This document shows, piece after piece, positions 134 to 32,689 of a stretch of DNA of 34,273 nt. The DNA is taken from the IMG/VR virus record IMGVR_UViG_3300032236_000187, positions 1 through 34,273 of that record, one strand, 5' to 3'. Positions within the stretch are counted from its first letter, which is position 1. The number at the start of each line of letters is the position of its first letter. A program made the position numbers and the translations under genes. This stretch comes from a virus. The notes beneath the pieces are model-generated. The model searched no databases. It had not been told where the DNA came from and saw only the letters and a list, made by a program, of their open reading frames with translations.

Positions 134-141
134 TGTAAATA
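134..141 (+). promoter_or_regulatory. T4-late-like promoter box (TGTAAATA), 5 nt before the Nudix ATG
   Basis: TGTAAATA matches the T4 late consensus TATAAATA at 7 of 8 positions. It is followed by five bases (CATGT) and then the ATG at 147. T4 late boxes cover about -13 to -6, so transcription would start at the A of the ATG. There is no Shine-Dalgarno sequence. The same string with one change precedes the terminase start near 32051. Confidence 0.45.
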
Positions 142-146
142 CATGT

Positions 147-566
147 ATGTCGAACCAAGCTGCCGGTGTTTTCTTTTATAGCAAATCGACTAGTCGATAC
201 CTTTATCTCCTTAGGTCGGAGATAAGAAATCCTACGTGGAGTATTCCAGGGGGAAAGATTGAAGATAATGAGACATTATTTGAAGGTATACGACGCGAGT
301 GCAATGAAGAGATAGGCTTCTTCGATTCAAATCTAAAATTGATTCCTATTCAGAAATTTGTGAATAACACATTTGTGTATCACACCTTCTTTTGTGAAGT
401 GGCAGAAGAATTTATTCCTGAATTAAATGATGAACACGTAGGTTATGCTTGGGTAGGTAATGATTTATATCCAAAGCCATTACATCCTGGTTTATTTAAT
501 ACAGTAAATATTGATGTAGTTCAGGAAAAACTCGATACACTAACTAGTAGTGTATCACATTCCTAA
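147..566 (+). CDS. Nudix hydrolase
   Basis: 139-residue single-domain Nudix protein, expected to hydrolyse a nucleoside diphosphate linked to another moiety in the cytoplasm. The Nudix box is complete at residues 36-58: G36, E42, the R50-E51 pair, E54-E55 and G57, fitting the GX5EX7REUXEEXGU pattern with Cys at the first U. The PGG just before the box and a Trp at 31 are typical of the fold. Substrate cannot be read from sequence; phage members include T4 NudE (ADP-ribose/Ap3A) and MutT-like enzymes. It is one of few plus-strand genes here and its 3' end overlaps the convergent coiled-coil gene by 12 nt. No ribosome-binding site is seen upstream; a late-type box sits 5 nt before the ATG. An alternative ATG in another frame at 143 is rejected. 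Confidence 0.93.
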   Translation: MSNQAAGVFFYSKSTSRYLYLLRSEIRNPTWSIPGGKIEDNETLFEGIRRECNEEIGFFDSNLKLIPIQKFVNNTFVYHTFFCEVAEEFIPELNDEHVGYAWVGNDLYPKPLHPGLFNTVNIDVVQEKLDTLTSSVSHS

Positions 567-882: not shown

Positions 883-2292
883 TTATGCTTTGCCGATAGT
901 TACGAGTGGGAAAGGAATGCCGCTGAGTGAAGCTGTTCCTGTTCCAGTACCTGCACCTGTAGCAACAAATGTTGTACCTACAGTATTATTGGCTGCACCG
1001 ATCAATGTGAAGTCAGTTGAACCAACGCTAACAATAGTATAAGTGCTACCAGTGACAAAACTACCTGCAACGACATAACCAAATGCAGTGTTGAATGTAG
1101 TAAATGCAGGGGATGCATTTTCAAATACAATGTTACCTGTTGCGACTGGACCAGAAGTTGCAGTGAACAATTCAGCAGTATGATCGCTCAAGCTCTGTAC
1201 CTTGACAGTAGTTGTGTTTGCATAAGTTGCAGTGATTGTCATTGTGTTTGGAGTCAATGCTGTATTGGCAAGGTTCGCAGTATAGGCTGCACTAACAATA
1301 CCAGTTGTAGTACCCTTAACGAGATACTTTTGCTTGCCCTTCTGACGAACAATGTAGCCAGCTTCTGGAAGAACTTGAATGAACGGATCACCTAAGCCAG
1401 TTGCACCAGTAGAGTTGCTTACTGAGTTAGCAGCTAAAACAATACGATTCTGAATAGCATATGCAGTCACGCTTGCATTTGAAGACAACCCAACGTTAGG
1501 ACCACCGCGTGTAGTAGAAACAGTGAATGCTGCTGCGTTAGCGATTGTACCTACGAAGTAAGTAGCACCTGCAGTCAATCCACCGAATGAAGTATCAAAA
1601 ACAACCGGAGTATTTGCAACAAGAGTCTGTGCATTGCCTGAAGTACCGATAATGTTTCCTGTTGCTGTTGTATTTGCTATAGCAACATTCAAGTTACCCT
1701 TAGTTGAAGTTGTAGTACCTAACAAGTGTTGCGTGCTATCTGCATATATAGCATACAGAATAGTACCAGTTGCAACATTTGCGAAGTCAGTACCTAACCC
1801 AACAACGACGTTGCTTGTAGTTGATGCAAACTCAGTACCAGTTCCGTTAACACCGAAGCCTACATTGCAGAGAACTGTATTACCATAAAGTGAAGTATTA
1901 CCACCAACTACTGAGTATGTGTTTGAGTTAGTTGCTGGCCAACCAGCACTACCGTTTGGATTATTGAAGTACATGTCGACAGGAGCAACTGTAGCTGATA
2001 CAGTTTGTCCAGATGCATTAGACAATGGTACTGATGTGTAAGTTGGGTTAGCATTTAGCGGAGTAGCAGATGCTGTAAAAGTGCTATTGTTTCCTGCATT
2101 AATTACTTTTAGAATCCAATACATAGTTCCACCAGTCAATCCACCGACAGTAGAAGCAGGTACGAACGGCATTCCTGCAATGATACCTAAAGTAGTGAAG
2201 TTAGCTGAAGTAGTGACTACGTTAGTAGTGACTGCTGTATCCGTAATAGTTACGACTGCCTGTGCTTTAGCAATCTTTAGAGGGCGTCCCAT
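883..2292 (-). CDS. Repetitive virion structural protein (fibre/neck-appendage type)
   Basis: 469 residues dominated by Ala, Thr, Val, Asn and Gly with almost no Cys or His, a composition typical of beta-rich exposed phage structural proteins. Near the C-terminus (residues about 410-455) is a segment of the type GSTYTIVSVGSTDFT followed by a GTTFVATGAGTGTGTAS-like run, a module I recognise from many marine phage structural proteins. Alternating Asn/Ala/Thr segments in the middle resemble those of the 185-aa gene upstream. It has its own late promoter (2376-2383), an approximately 80-nt structured leader and a good AAGGAG before the ATG, suggesting high late expression. The exact location in the virion is unknown. 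Confidence 0.8.
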   Translation of the reverse strand: MGRPLKIAKAQAVVTITDTAVTTNVVTTSANFTTLGIIAGMPFVPASTVGGLTGGTMYWILKVINAGNNSTFTASATPLNANPTYTSVPLSNASGQTVSATVAPVDMYFNNPNGSAGWPATNSNTYSVVGGNTSLYGNTVLCNVGFGVNGTGTEFASTTSNVVVGLGTDFANVATGTILYAIYADSTQHLLGTTTSTKGNLNVAIANTTATGNIIGTSGNAQTLVANTPVVFDTSFGGLTAGATYFVGTIANAAAFTVSTTRGGPNVGLSSNASVTAYAIQNRIVLAANSVSNSTGATGLGDPFIQVLPEAGYIVRQKGKQKYLVKGTTTGIVSAAYTANLANTALTPNTMTITATYANTTTVKVQSLSDHTAELFTATSGPVATGNIVFENASPAFTTFNTAFGYVVAGSFVTGSTYTIVSVGSTDFTLIGAANNTVGTTFVATGAGTGTGTASLSGIPFPLVTIGKA

Positions 2293-2311
2293 TTGTTTCT
2301 CCTTATAAAAC

Positions 2312-2367
2312 AGCGGGTTCTAGCCGCTACGCAGTGGGAAGACTGCATAAACTCACCGAATGTGAGT
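2312..2367 (-). promoter_or_regulatory. Three consecutive stem-loops in the 5' leader of the 469-aa structural gene
   Basis: Reading along the minus strand from the late promoter, the leader holds ACTCAC-ATTCG-GTGAGT (2367-2351), GCAGT-CTTCCC-ACTGC (2346-2331) and AGCGG-CTAGAAC-CCGCT (2328-2312), followed by TGTTTTATAAGGAG and the ATG. Three perfect 5-6 bp stems in about 60 nt is far more structure than in neighbouring leaders. They could stabilise the mRNA 5' end or regulate translation; the last one, followed by a short T run, could instead be a weak terminator. Confidence 0.5.
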
Positions 2368-16809: not shown

Positions 16810-16849
16810 GATAAATAGTGTAGTTCGCGGGACGGCAATCCCCAACTAC
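16810..16849 (+). promoter_or_regulatory. HNH-gene leader: late-type box GATAAATA plus 5'-terminal hairpin
   Basis: GATAAATA (16810-16817) is followed by a stem GTAGTT (16820-16825) / AACTAC (16844-16849) and an inner stem GGGA (16829-16832) / TCCC (16839-16842), then an AAGGAG site (16862-16867) and the ATG at 16875. The same array precedes the GIY-YIG gene at 32619; stems are identical in both while the loop differs (CGGCAA here, TTGGCG there). Confidence 0.75.
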
Positions 16850-16874
16850 TCTAACGCTTTGAAGGAGCATCAGC

Positions 16875-17405
16875 ATGACTATTTACACCAGCAAGAACTA
16901 CCGCAAAATATACGAGCAACACTACGGTCCTATTCCCAAAGATAGTGATGGTAGAACATATGAGATACATCATATTGACGGAGACCGAAATAACAACGAT
17001 CCAAGCAATCTGCTATGTATTTCAATCCAAGAACATTATGATATCCATTATCAACAAGGTGATTGGGCTGCATGTCTCGTGATGGCCGGAAGAATGAAAA
17101 TATCTCCGCAATTAAAATCAGAATTGTCACGCAAAGCACAGTTAAACCTCGTAGAGCAAGGTATTCATCCTTCTTCTCGCCGCACATCATCTGACTTTAC
17201 ACCTGAATGGAAGGCTAGAATTTCTGCTGCTAAAATCGGAAAGAAAACTTGGAACAAAGGAATTCTAAGAACAGAAGAAGAAAAAGCTAAAATGCGGCAA
17301 GGACATAACAAAAGAGAACGATTAGAATGTCCTCATTGCAAAAGAAGTATAGACAAACCTAACTATACTAGATACCACGGGGACAAATGCAGTTCTAGGA
17401 GTTAG
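16875..17405 (+). CDS. HNH homing endonuclease with C-terminal zinc finger
   Basis: 176 residues. The HNH core is at about 28-62: YEIHHIDGD with H32-H33, NNNDPSNLL with the central Asn, and EHYDIHYQ closing the metal site. Residues about 110-145 hold NUMOD-like DNA-binding segments (WKARISAAKIGKK, TWNKGILRTEEEKAKM). The end is a zinc finger with C152, C155, H168 and C172 (ECPHCKRSID ... YHGDKC), matching the tail of the GIY-YIG enzyme at 32044-32619. It is a free-standing homing endonuclease expected to nick or cut related phage genomes and spread itself. It is on the opposite strand to its neighbours between dexA and a small-protein operon, typical of insertion. AAGGAG lies 8 nt before the ATG. 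Confidence 0.93.
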   Translation: MTIYTSKNYRKIYEQHYGPIPKDSDGRTYEIHHIDGDRNNNDPSNLLCISIQEHYDIHYQQGDWAACLVMAGRMKISPQLKSELSRKAQLNLVEQGIHPSSRRTSSDFTPEWKARISAAKIGKKTWNKGILRTEEEKAKMRQGHNKRERLECPHCKRSIDKPNYTRYHGDKCSSRS

Positions 17406-30484: not shown

Positions 30485-30492
30485 TATTTATG
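30485..30492 (-). promoter_or_regulatory. Late-type box (CATAAATA) 5 nt before the 391-aa gene
   Basis: CATAAATA followed by TTATC and the ATG at 30479, in the 18-nt gap after terL. The same octamer is the tail-fibre promoter, there with a normal 30-nt leader. A leaderless transcript is predicted. Confidence 0.5.
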
Positions 30493-30497
30493 CCAAA

Positions 30498-32051
30498 CTA
30501 GCCTAGAACAGCAAAGAAGGGTAACGGAGAAATCATATCGTCATGATCCCTAATCTGTGCCTCGAGATCACCGTGATAATCAGCAAGTTGTTGCATCATT
30601 CTCACTGCAAGCAATGCTGCCATTATCAAATCATCATGGTCACCAATCTTTGCTGCATAACTTCCACCATGAGCAACGAATGCTTTTAATTCACTAATCA
30701 ATGCGCGGCTATGAATAGTCATCTTTTTTGATTCTAGTAGTGTTTTGAATTTAGCACAAGCCGCTAATTTTGGTTTTTGACTTGTGTTAAATCCTTTACG
30801 CTTCTTGCCCGGCTCACTGATGAATGTTCCTTGAATGTTAGCTTCTCCGTATTCTGCAAGAGAGATAAGTGATGCTTCACCGATAGAATTATTTTCCACT
30901 GAATAATAGATGCTGTTTGGTTCGCCGGTAATATCAGCGATGTATTTTGTTATCTCAGCGATTAATTTGATTTGGCTAGGAATATCTGTTTTGTTATGTT
31001 TCCATTCACCTATCTGGGTCGTAGTGCTTGCTTCAAAAATTTGAATAGCGGCCGGATCTCCACCTGTACCTAAAGATGGATCAAGTGCTACGACATATAG
31101 CTTACCTTTCTCAGGTCTTTTATACCAGCGAACCTGTCCCATTCTATGAACCGGTTCTTGTCCTTCAAGCATTAGCAGCGTATTTGGATTGATGAGTGTT
31201 TCGTCTGCGATAATGAATTCACATCCGATCTCTCGACTAAATCTGTCATCACCTAATTGTGCCCGCATTTCATCCGCCCAGGCATCATCTCTACCTGGTT
31301 GTTCTCTCCAGTATGCACGATATGCTTTGAATCCGTTACGTCCTAATTCAGTCGTATTACCAAATTCATCTTCAGTCTTGTTAGCCATTTTCCAAATGAG
31401 AGCAAACTGATCTTCATCTGAGTTAGGTGTAGAAGTGATGATTGCCTTACCACCAGTTGACAGGGTAGGAGTGATAGAAGTCCAGAATTCAGTTGCGATT
31501 GAAGGACGCACGAATGCAAACTCGTCAAGATATAACAAGGTAATGGACATACCACGTCCTGTGTTTTCAGTTGTCGTAGCAGATACAATACGTGATCCGT
31601 TCTCGAAATCAAGAGAACCCTTGTTGTAAGTAGTTACACCAGCTTTAATGTGATCTGGACAATTTTCATACGCATAACGAATACGTTGCATGATTTCTTG
31701 TGCGCCAGTATATTTGTGCGCTGCGATTAGAATAGTGGAGTCTGGGTTGAACATGGCGTACCACAACAAATATCCTGCTGCCGATGTTGACTTTCCACTC
31801 TGCCTAGGCATCAATGAGATACTAAAGCGATATCTGTGGTAGGTATCAATCAGTCTTTCTTGATATTCCCAAGGATGGTATAACATAGAGCCTTTAGTTG
31901 GGTGTTGTATATAAAAATAGTTATCCATAAAGTAAAGATACCCGGTTTCAGGATCACAACATTTTATAAAATCGTCAAGGTCTTTCTGTGTTTTAAACAC
32001 AGTTTTCTTGTATGGATCTTTCACGAGAGAGGGGGTTGCATTATTAGCCAT
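30498..32051 (-). CDS. terL: Terminase large subunit, T4 gp17-like
   Basis: 517 residues from ATG 32051 ([16 protein letters not shown]); in-frame upstream codons lie inside the GIY-YIG gene. It powers DNA packaging and cuts concatemers at the portal. ATPase: Walker A MPRQSGKS at 81-88, Walker B LLYLDEF with D176-E177, and a coupling motif TSTPNS at 207-212. Nuclease: [12 protein letters not shown] (first Asp about 324), [12 protein letters not shown] and [13 protein letters not shown], the RNase H-like triad. Length and motif order match T4 gp17 (610 aa) without its longer N-terminus. The start overlaps the GIY-YIG stop by 8 nt, and a TGTAAATA box lies 5 nt upstream. Confidence 0.97.
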
Positions 32052-32619
32052 ACTTGTATTTACACGTTTCTCCGTGCCACCGTCTATAATTTCTGTCATC
32101 AAAAGACCTTAAACAATGAATACAATGTACCTTAGGTTTTAATTTTAGCGTTTCACTTATCTTTGCTTTATGGTCCTCACCTTTTGGTTTACCTTTCTGA
32201 TGTGCAGACATTCTATGTTTTGTTTCATCGGATTTAGTAACACCCTTTCTAAGTTTAGACATTTTTTGTTTAGTAGCATCCGATGCTTTAACTATACCAG
32301 TTACACCTTTATTCCAAGGTATTATCCCAGTAGAACCATCACCCCCATCTGTCTTATTTCTTAAAATACCTGTACCTAAATCTTTGCGGCCATACCACCG
32401 TATTAGTCTTCTTTCAATAGCTAAGGAGCCTATTTCGGATAGGTTCTGCTCTACAATAATTATTTTGGAAACATCTTGAGGAGGATGAACTTCTCCCTTA
32501 CCTTTATACCAAGCCCGACCATTCTTTCCTTTGCCGATATAATACGGAGTTCCGTCTGCTCTAATATAAGCGTAAACATAGAAACCTGATGGTAGGGAGG
32601 TTCTAGTGTAAATAGTCAT
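32044..32619 (-). CDS. GIY-YIG homing endonuclease with C-terminal zinc finger
   Basis: 191 residues from ATG 32619 ([12 protein letters not shown]), after AAGGAG. The catalytic domain has YVYAYI at 14-19 (GIY equivalent), YYIGKG at 26-31 (YIG), R35 and E69 ([11 protein letters not shown]). NUMOD-type DNA-binding repeats occupy about 100-160 ([39 protein letters not shown]). The last 30 residues form a zinc finger with C166, C169, H182, C186. It is inserted between the 93-aa gene and terL, overlapping the terL start by 8 nt. A longer in-frame start at 32691 begins inside the promoter box and is rejected. Its leader and zinc finger match the HNH enzyme at 16875. Confidence 0.94.
32057..32064 (-). 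promoter_or_regulatory. Late-type box (TGTAAATA) 5 nt before terL, inside the GIY-YIG gene
   Basis: Minus strand TGTAAATA-CAAGT-ATG. This 16-mer differs at one base from the sequence in front of the Nudix gene (TGTAAATACATGTATG). It codes for CKYKY of the endonuclease zinc finger, so endonuclease coding and terL promoter share bases. Confidence 0.5.
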
Positions 32620-32646
32620 AGCTGATAGCTCCTTCATAGCGTTAGA

Positions 32647-32689
32647 GTAGTTGGGGACGCCAATCCCGCGAACTACACTTTTATTTATC
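32647..32689 (-). promoter_or_regulatory. GIY-YIG gene leader: late-type box GATAAATA plus 5'-terminal hairpin
   Basis: GATAAATA is at 32689-32682. It is followed by GTAGTT (32676-32671) / AACTAC (32652-32647) with an inner GGGA (32667-32664) / TCCC (32657-32654) stem, then an AAGGAG site and the ATG. The array is the same as upstream of the HNH gene. Confidence 0.75.

Follow-up and report, generated by a model that had tools for sequence, protein, structure and literature searches.

The leaders of two homing endonuclease genes in a viral DNA record are copies of one mobile module of about 75 nt, which serves at least three unrelated nuclease types: GIY-YIG, HNH, and PD-(D/E)xK. Its carriers are uncultured T4-like viruses. 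We consider it somewhat probable that the module is a self-contained control unit, in which a late promoter on the sense strand is combined with an antisense RNA that would lower translation of the endonuclease.

The window, by which we mean the whole stretch of DNA analyzed, is a virus record of 34,273 bases whose genes are T4-like by their translations; its large terminase shares 49% identity with those of T4-like phages such as PA5oct. The HNH leader lies at 16810-16885 (+) and the GIY-YIG leader at 32609-32689 (-), and the two form a 55-nt inverted pair that is 87% identical (16814-16868/32628-32682). As described in the earlier note on this DNA, both copies contain GATAAATA, GTGTAGTTCGCGGGA, a 6-nt loop, TCCCCAACTACTCTAACGCT, AAGGAG, and an ATG opening MTIYT, and the coordinates that it gave for both ORFs are correct (Table 1). 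This likeness is not due to chance, given 35 matches to the exact pattern in IMG/VR and covariance model scores of 85 to 87 bits for the two window leaders (E of about 1e-21). The HNH ORF matches Pfam HNH_3 (1.7e-13) and NUMOD3 (9.6e-6), and its nearest cultured relatives are I-TevIII-like. The domain of the GIY-YIG ORF falls below the Pfam cutoff and was assigned by motif, by matches to the homing endonuclease PHROGs 314 and 655, and by phage relatives, which are found in cyanophage S-SRM01. Both C-terminal fingers, one of which reads CPHCKRSIDKPNYTRYHGDKC, fit the patterns C-x2-C...H-x3-C and RSxDxxNYxRxHG.

Table 1. Coordinates of features of the two endonuclease cassettes in the window
Feature	Position	Strand	Remarks
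T4-type late promoter GATAAATA, HNH cassette	16810..16817	+	TAAATA in 175/176 leaders; 2-nt spacer to H1
Hairpin H1, HNH leader	16820..16849		Arms 16820-16825 and 16844-16849
H1 interior, HNH leader	Pair 16827-16843; inner stem 16829-16832 and 16839-16842		
Hairpin H2, HNH leader	16854..16870		Arms ACGCT 16854-16858 and AGCAT 16866-16870; around Shine-Dalgarno AAGGAG 16862-16867
CAGC-N5-TATTTA, start codon region; candidate antisense late promoter TAAATA-N5-+1 (G)	16871..16885	-	
Putative antisense RNA, about 60-70 nt	16815..16874	-	Across whole 5' UTR of HNH mRNA
HNH homing endonuclease ORF	16875..17405	+	HNH_3 domain about 16902-17036, NUMOD3
C-terminal zinc finger CPHC...HGDKC, HNH	17328..17390	+	Sequence pattern
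T4-type late promoter GATAAATA, GIY-YIG cassette	32682..32689	-	5-nt spacer to H1; model match 32609-32687, 86.5 bits
Hairpin H1, GIY-YIG leader	32647..32676		Covariation, model match
Hairpin H2, GIY-YIG leader	32624..32642		Shine-Dalgarno AAGGAG 32629-32634 (-)
TATTTA/start codon/CAGC, GIY-YIG leader; candidate antisense promoter TAAATA-N5/6-G	32609..32623	+	
GIY-YIG homing endonuclease ORF	32044..32619	-	Catalytic part about 32320-32583
C-terminal zinc finger CIHC...HGETC, GIY-YIG	32062..32124	-	Sequence pattern
Late promoter TAAATA-N5-ATG of downstream large terminase	32049..32062	-	Within 3' end of endonuclease ORF

Leader copies are numerous among uncultured viruses. Three relaxed patterns, each freeing another part of the leader, returned at least about 120 IMG/VR matches apiece, and IMG/VR holds more than 250 distinct copies; every leader count is a lower bound. 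When 2.56 Mb of fetched sequence was scanned by structure, there were 327 matches (257 distinct) and none in reversed sequences. Ten whole virus records searched with the covariance model contain 66 copies; three of the records, 333 to 361 kb long, have 13, 13, and 16 of them. The earlier note had named one recent local duplication as a possible trivial source of the likeness; duplication of a single leader is ruled out by the more than 250 distinct copies spread over many contigs. BLAST found no match to the leader in 50,697 records of cultured phages, and two cultured phages that carry related endonucleases had no covariance model match. A bacterial origin was rejected: one exact leader pattern returned no match in GTDB genomes (257 billion bases from bacteria and archaea). 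A group I intron or another RNA of known type was also rejected: the window leaders had no Rfam 15 match on either strand at E ≤ 5, and nine loci with variant leaders had no Rfam match at E ≤ 1.

Virtually every leader copy sits before a homing endonuclease. The nuclease classes of 233 complete ORFs behind the leader, assigned by motif, comprise GIY-YIG (145; types A, 70, B, 51, C, 19, and D, 5), HNH (at least 70; 33 HNH_3 and 37 HNH with HHIIP), and 18 others, among them further HNH proteins, NUMOD3 tails without a nuclease, and PD-(D/E)xK-like proteins, one of which is TnsA-like at 7.6e-21, above the Pfam cutoff. A domain scan of 150 of the proteins behind the leader returned chiefly NUMOD3 (50/150), HNH, HNH_3, HNH_5, GIY-YIG, and SegE-type domains, and homing endonuclease PHROGs matched up to 92 of the 150. 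In the ten whole records, each of the 66 copies stands at the front of an endonuclease cassette, one of them via an intervening ORF; this rules out a leader of ordinary genes, and the many nonendonuclease genes that the earlier note allowed for behind the leader did not appear. In the other direction, five of these records contain 20 strong HNH_3 genes, and 18 of them carry the leader. The intervening ORF (L397; record G005, about 103,335) is 106 codons long and lies between the leader and the nuclease, overlapping the next gene, a GIY-YIG.

The module reads, in order, TAAATA, a spacer, hairpin H1, NCTA, hairpin H2, CAGC, 5 nt that include the start codon, and TATTTA. H1 has an outer stem of six base pairs and an inner stem of three or four, with an R-Y pair flanked by single bulges in between, and the Shine-Dalgarno sequence occupies the loop and 3' arm of H2. 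Conservation begins at the TAAATA box and the A preceding it and declines within two bases past TATTTA. TAAATA stands at the promoter place in all but one of 176 leaders, 29 of these 175 reading AC/GC-TAAATA. The spacer to H1 is 5 nt in 135 of the 176 leaders and 3 nt in 25; the HNH leader of the window deviates, with 2 nt instead of 5. In T4, the late TATA box occupies -13 to -6; phage Aeh1 has a/gC at -13/-12 (PMC2988020). When compared with these, the leader variants at -12/-13 (A or a/gC) match both T4 and Aeh1 late promoters; the leader has a TATAAATA box at -13 to -6, no -35, and a predicted +1 after 5 nt. By these features, the presence of a T4-type late promoter in the leader is strongly supported.

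Among other genes of these viruses, TAAATA-N5-ATG is over-represented: 98 of the 472 TAAATA occurrences that precede ORFs of 110 amino acids or more in L001-L400 have this gap, and neighboring gaps have about 10. The window contains it before the terminase (Table 1) and at about 30485-30490 (-) and about 136-147 (+). The exact 5-nt gap suggests that viruses of this group make leaderless late mRNAs.

TATTTA, at the other end of the module, is constrained as nucleotide sequence, the ORFs reading it in all three phases. TA(T/C)TTA is present in 66 of 66 model matches that were not chosen for this motif. The leader is fused to the 233 complete ORFs in all three reading frames, TATTTA being read as MTIY (phase 2), MIF/MLF (phase 1), or MYL (phase 0), and several phases occur inside a single nuclease family. 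CAGC-N5-TATTTA is thus a fixed block across which the ATG position floats in three frames. The shared opening MTIYT of the two window proteins, as the earlier note had it, is real, but it stems from this motif and not from protein homology.

One explanation for TATTTA would make an antisense RNA unnecessary. In a lock of the I-TevI/mobE type, UAAAUA would pair with UAUUUA (a helix that we call H0) in read-through RNA and hide the start codon, whereas late transcripts begin past the first H0 arm and so would be free. Such a lock is known for I-TevI, I-TevII, I-TevIII, segB, and Aeh1 mobE (PMC2988022). Predicted accessibility of the start region is lower in read-through RNA (0.43) than in late RNA (0.57, p = 3e-22) and than with shuffled upstream sequence (0.50, p = 6e-7), and five MIF-type cassettes have an H0 of 14 to 15 bp with compensatory changes, all of them, together with L203 in the same promoter context, co-directional with the upstream gene. 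Yet H0 amounts to six A-U pairs in most copies, its own arms pair over 8.38 bp versus 8.04 bp for swapped arms, and its duplex energies equal those of swapped controls. TACTTA variants lack compensation, the Shine-Dalgarno sequence is not hidden in read-through RNA (its accessibility is unchanged), and most cassettes lie antisense to their neighbors. As a general reason for TATTTA, H0 is weakened because its own arms barely beat swapped arms; the lock also leaves the pairing asymmetry described below unexplained, and we consider it unlikely as the explanation of the module. At the level of single loci, a 14- to 15-bp inverted repeat with compensatory changes surrounds the promoter and start codon in L034, L158, L161, L164, L194, and L217, and five of these six, plus the similar L203, were scored as co-directional with the upstream gene.

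Compensatory change supports both hairpins. Across 58 diverse leaders, all 16 pairs have changes on both sides (H1, 11/11; H2, 5/5). H1 cells are paired in 96% of cases, and cells of H1 and H2 together are paired in 89.9% in the sense direction, versus 69% after shuffling and 29 to 43% after sliding; the covariation score is 0.55, versus 0.17 shuffled and 0.04 to 0.13 slid. These leaders had been preselected partly by H1 pairing, and a second set was therefore searched with H1 left free. In this set, 54 variant H1 arms pair at 6/6 (39) or 5/6 (15) positions, versus mostly 3 to 5 for swapped arms.

The exceptions to pairing are one-sided. In 130 distinct H1 sequences taken with no pairing criterion, the sense strand has no G.U and 30 A.C combinations (outer stem, 0 and 14; R-Y pair, 0 and 15; inner stem, 0 and 1), and in H2 it has 1 G.U and 15 A.C. 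A.C exceptions in the sense strand are G.U pairs in the antisense strand, and the fold therefore appears to be selected on the opposite strand. The C.A pair at 16855-16869 in H2 of the window HNH leader, for example, is G.U on an antisense RNA. Standard pairs account for 89.9% of sense and 95.4% of antisense positions, and H2, which has one mispaired position in most sense copies, is paired there in antisense. Unguided consensus folding returns H1 alone in sense (-12.94) and both hairpins, H1' and H2', in antisense (-16.25), an excess of stability that is partly base composition, as shuffled sequences also favor antisense. A mutational strand bias is an unlikely cause of the asymmetry because cassettes occur in both orientations relative to their neighbors. 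Together, these comparisons strongly support selection for a folded RNA on the antisense strand, and the term "expression leader" used earlier is too narrow for the module.

This asymmetry also bears on the plainest alternative, in which the module is an ordinary late 5' UTR with H1 stabilizing the mRNA, H2 tuning translation, and TATTTA keeping the start codon unstructured. In most copies, the predicted +1 would coincide with the first base of H1, as this alternative would have it, and elsewhere in the window a freshwater-2 RNA (RF02980, 67 bits; 2290-2367, minus strand) likewise has its hairpin just past TATAAATA, before the ORF at 883-2292. Selection on a sense RNA, however, predicts G.U intermediates and not A.C, and would leave H2 mispaired at one position in most copies of the very strand on which it acts while that position is paired in antisense. 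Low structure, moreover, does not need an exact TATTTA whose distance from CAGC stays fixed whatever the frame. We therefore regard a plain 5' UTR as quite unlikely to be the whole account.

Read in antisense, as the reading that we favor requires, the module consists of TAAATA-N5-G, H2' with the loop CUCCUU, UUAGAG, H1', and a U-rich tail, e.g., ACUUUUAUUUA. The antisense TAAATA has a spacing of 5 in 169 of 226 copies, and in 164 of these 169 the predicted +1 is G. At antisense -12, 155 of 226 copies have A and 52 have G, versus G in 4 of 226 at sense promoters; at frame-0 junctions, this base is A in 3 of 30. The sense spacer is A-rich and T-poor relative to other late promoters, and the antisense strand is therefore U-rich after H1'. 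The U tail is interrupted, and a terminator scan did not list the antisense 3' end. By sequence, the candidate antisense promoter and terminator appear weaker than the sense promoter, and antisense repression alone does not explain the conservation of CTCTAA and CAGC.

The leader moves with its gene. Comparison of flanks at empty sites defines the cassette as running from TAAATA through the stop codon: in L284 versus L246, flanks that are 99.6 to 99.8% identical leave a gap of 6 nt, and the pairs L056/L115 and L294/L183 leave gaps of 1 and 5. The leader was thus inserted together with its ORF, as a mobile free-standing homing endonuclease cassette. Of 174 cassettes, 77 run antisense to both neighbors and 41 in the same sense; the prevailing antisense placement fits a need for a promoter of their own. 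In the window, the GIY-YIG cassette sits at the terminase gene's own late promoter, which reads GCTAAATAATACTATG in an empty-site relative (L071) and TAAATACAAGTATG in the window, there within the last codons of the endonuclease. These codons, the end of the finger, embed the terminase late promoter, and the stop codon of the endonuclease overlaps the start of the terminase. Three loci (L240, L274, and L287) have lost the endonuclease ORF and kept the leader, and L092 has a truncated leader.

Leader, core, and finger were compared by distance and label-shuffle tests instead of separate trees because a leader of 75 nt is too short to resolve a tree well. Where leaders have identical H1, the nuclease family behind them is the same at a frequency of 0.29, versus 0.22 expected (p = 0.002); H1 is thus nearly random by family, and a leader tracking nuclease phylogeny was rejected as the main pattern. 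The nearest leader lies in the same genome for 27 of the 66 copies in whole records (10 expected), and across the ten records leaders are slightly closer to genome-mates than to family-mates. The proposal that the leader is a reusable module was borne out, as it precedes GIY-YIG, HNH, and PD-(D/E)xK genes almost at random and is fused to them in three frames. The accompanying claim that only the core had been exchanged did not hold: of 233 ORFs behind the leader, 81 carry the zinc finger, and every family is represented among them. Fingers from different families share 44% identity, little less than the 47% within families, which makes the finger a separately shuffled tail, shared but optional.

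A further alternative is that the bottom strand folds as single-stranded DNA, in the manner of attC or IS200/IS605, and serves recombination or cassette exchange instead of RNA control. G.T is tolerated in DNA hairpins too, and leaders have been exchanged between nuclease types. The 6-nt apical loop of H1 occurs in both orientations in 18 of 44 distinct loops (257 distinct leaders), where shuffling gives 0.6, an observation that points to DNA hairpins at some time. Against this, the cassette has no partner hairpin at its 3' end, the empty sites show only the boundary of ORF plus leader, and no association with recombinases was seen; this alternative would also leave the promoter-like ends and the Shine-Dalgarno sequence unexplained. 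We judge this alternative very improbable.

In the reading that we prefer, with late promoter and antisense RNA combined, transcription from the module's own TAAATA, with +1 at the first base of H1, would give any nuclease ORF late expression independent of insertion site and orientation; this sense step is strongly supported. A second promoter, TAAATA-N5-G, overlapping the start codon, would read the same DNA in reverse and produce a short RNA of H2' and H1' ending in a U-rich tail. The H2' loop CUCCUU is complementary to the Shine-Dalgarno sequence, and the RNA, complementary to the whole 5' UTR, would lower translation of its own endonuclease; we infer both the antisense start at TATTTA and the translational repression. 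Because the modules are alike, the RNA would also partly lower translation from other copies in the genome. That the 13 to 16 nuclease genes of a large phage share a partly cross-acting antisense regulon, similar to plasmid copy-number control, is a tentative extension to which we give a little less than an even chance.

If this is true, homing endonucleases of several unrelated folds are under the control of a family of antisense RNAs encoded in an exchangeable start module. The leader adds to known structured RNAs a widespread one that has no Rfam family and is tied to the mobile endonucleases of large uncultured T4-like viruses, and it shows that the control region of these selfish genes is itself transferable and is combined with different nuclease folds. 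It could serve as a sequence tag for finding free-standing homing endonuclease genes of any fold, and the tolerance of phages for a dozen or more homing endonucleases becomes directly testable.

I-TevI, I-TevII, I-TevIII, segB, and Aeh1 mobE are known to have late promoters and hairpins that hide the ribosome-binding site (PMC2988022). The module resembles these leaders in its own late promoter immediately upstream of the endonuclease and in a hairpin at the ribosome-binding site. It differs from them, whose hairpins were described singly, in being one homologous, covarying module shared by at least three nuclease superfamilies, and in a fold that appears to be selected on the antisense strand. 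In the open-access literature, we found no shared leader or antisense RNA described for homing endonucleases. Modular homing endonucleases of the NUMOD3 kind, GIY-YIG and HNH proteins with shared DNA-binding tails, similarly shuffle catalytic domains and tails; here, unlike there, the shuffling takes in a 5' control module. The freshwater-2 RNA of the window, with which a late mRNA may begin, is likewise a cis-regulatory RNA close behind a late promoter box; it differs from the module in sequence and structure, and the ORF that follows it is not an endonuclease. RNA-OUT of IS10 and CopA of plasmid R1 are short folded antisense RNAs, made from a convergent promoter over a ribosome-binding site, whose target is the mobile element's own enzyme or initiator; RNA-OUT lowers translation of the IS10 transposase. 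The module shares with them a folded RNA selected opposite an mRNA leader, the antisense transcript here being a predicted one. Whereas RNA-OUT and CopA each belong to one element and one enzyme, the leader module would serve many endonucleases, in lytic phages and from T4-type late promoters.
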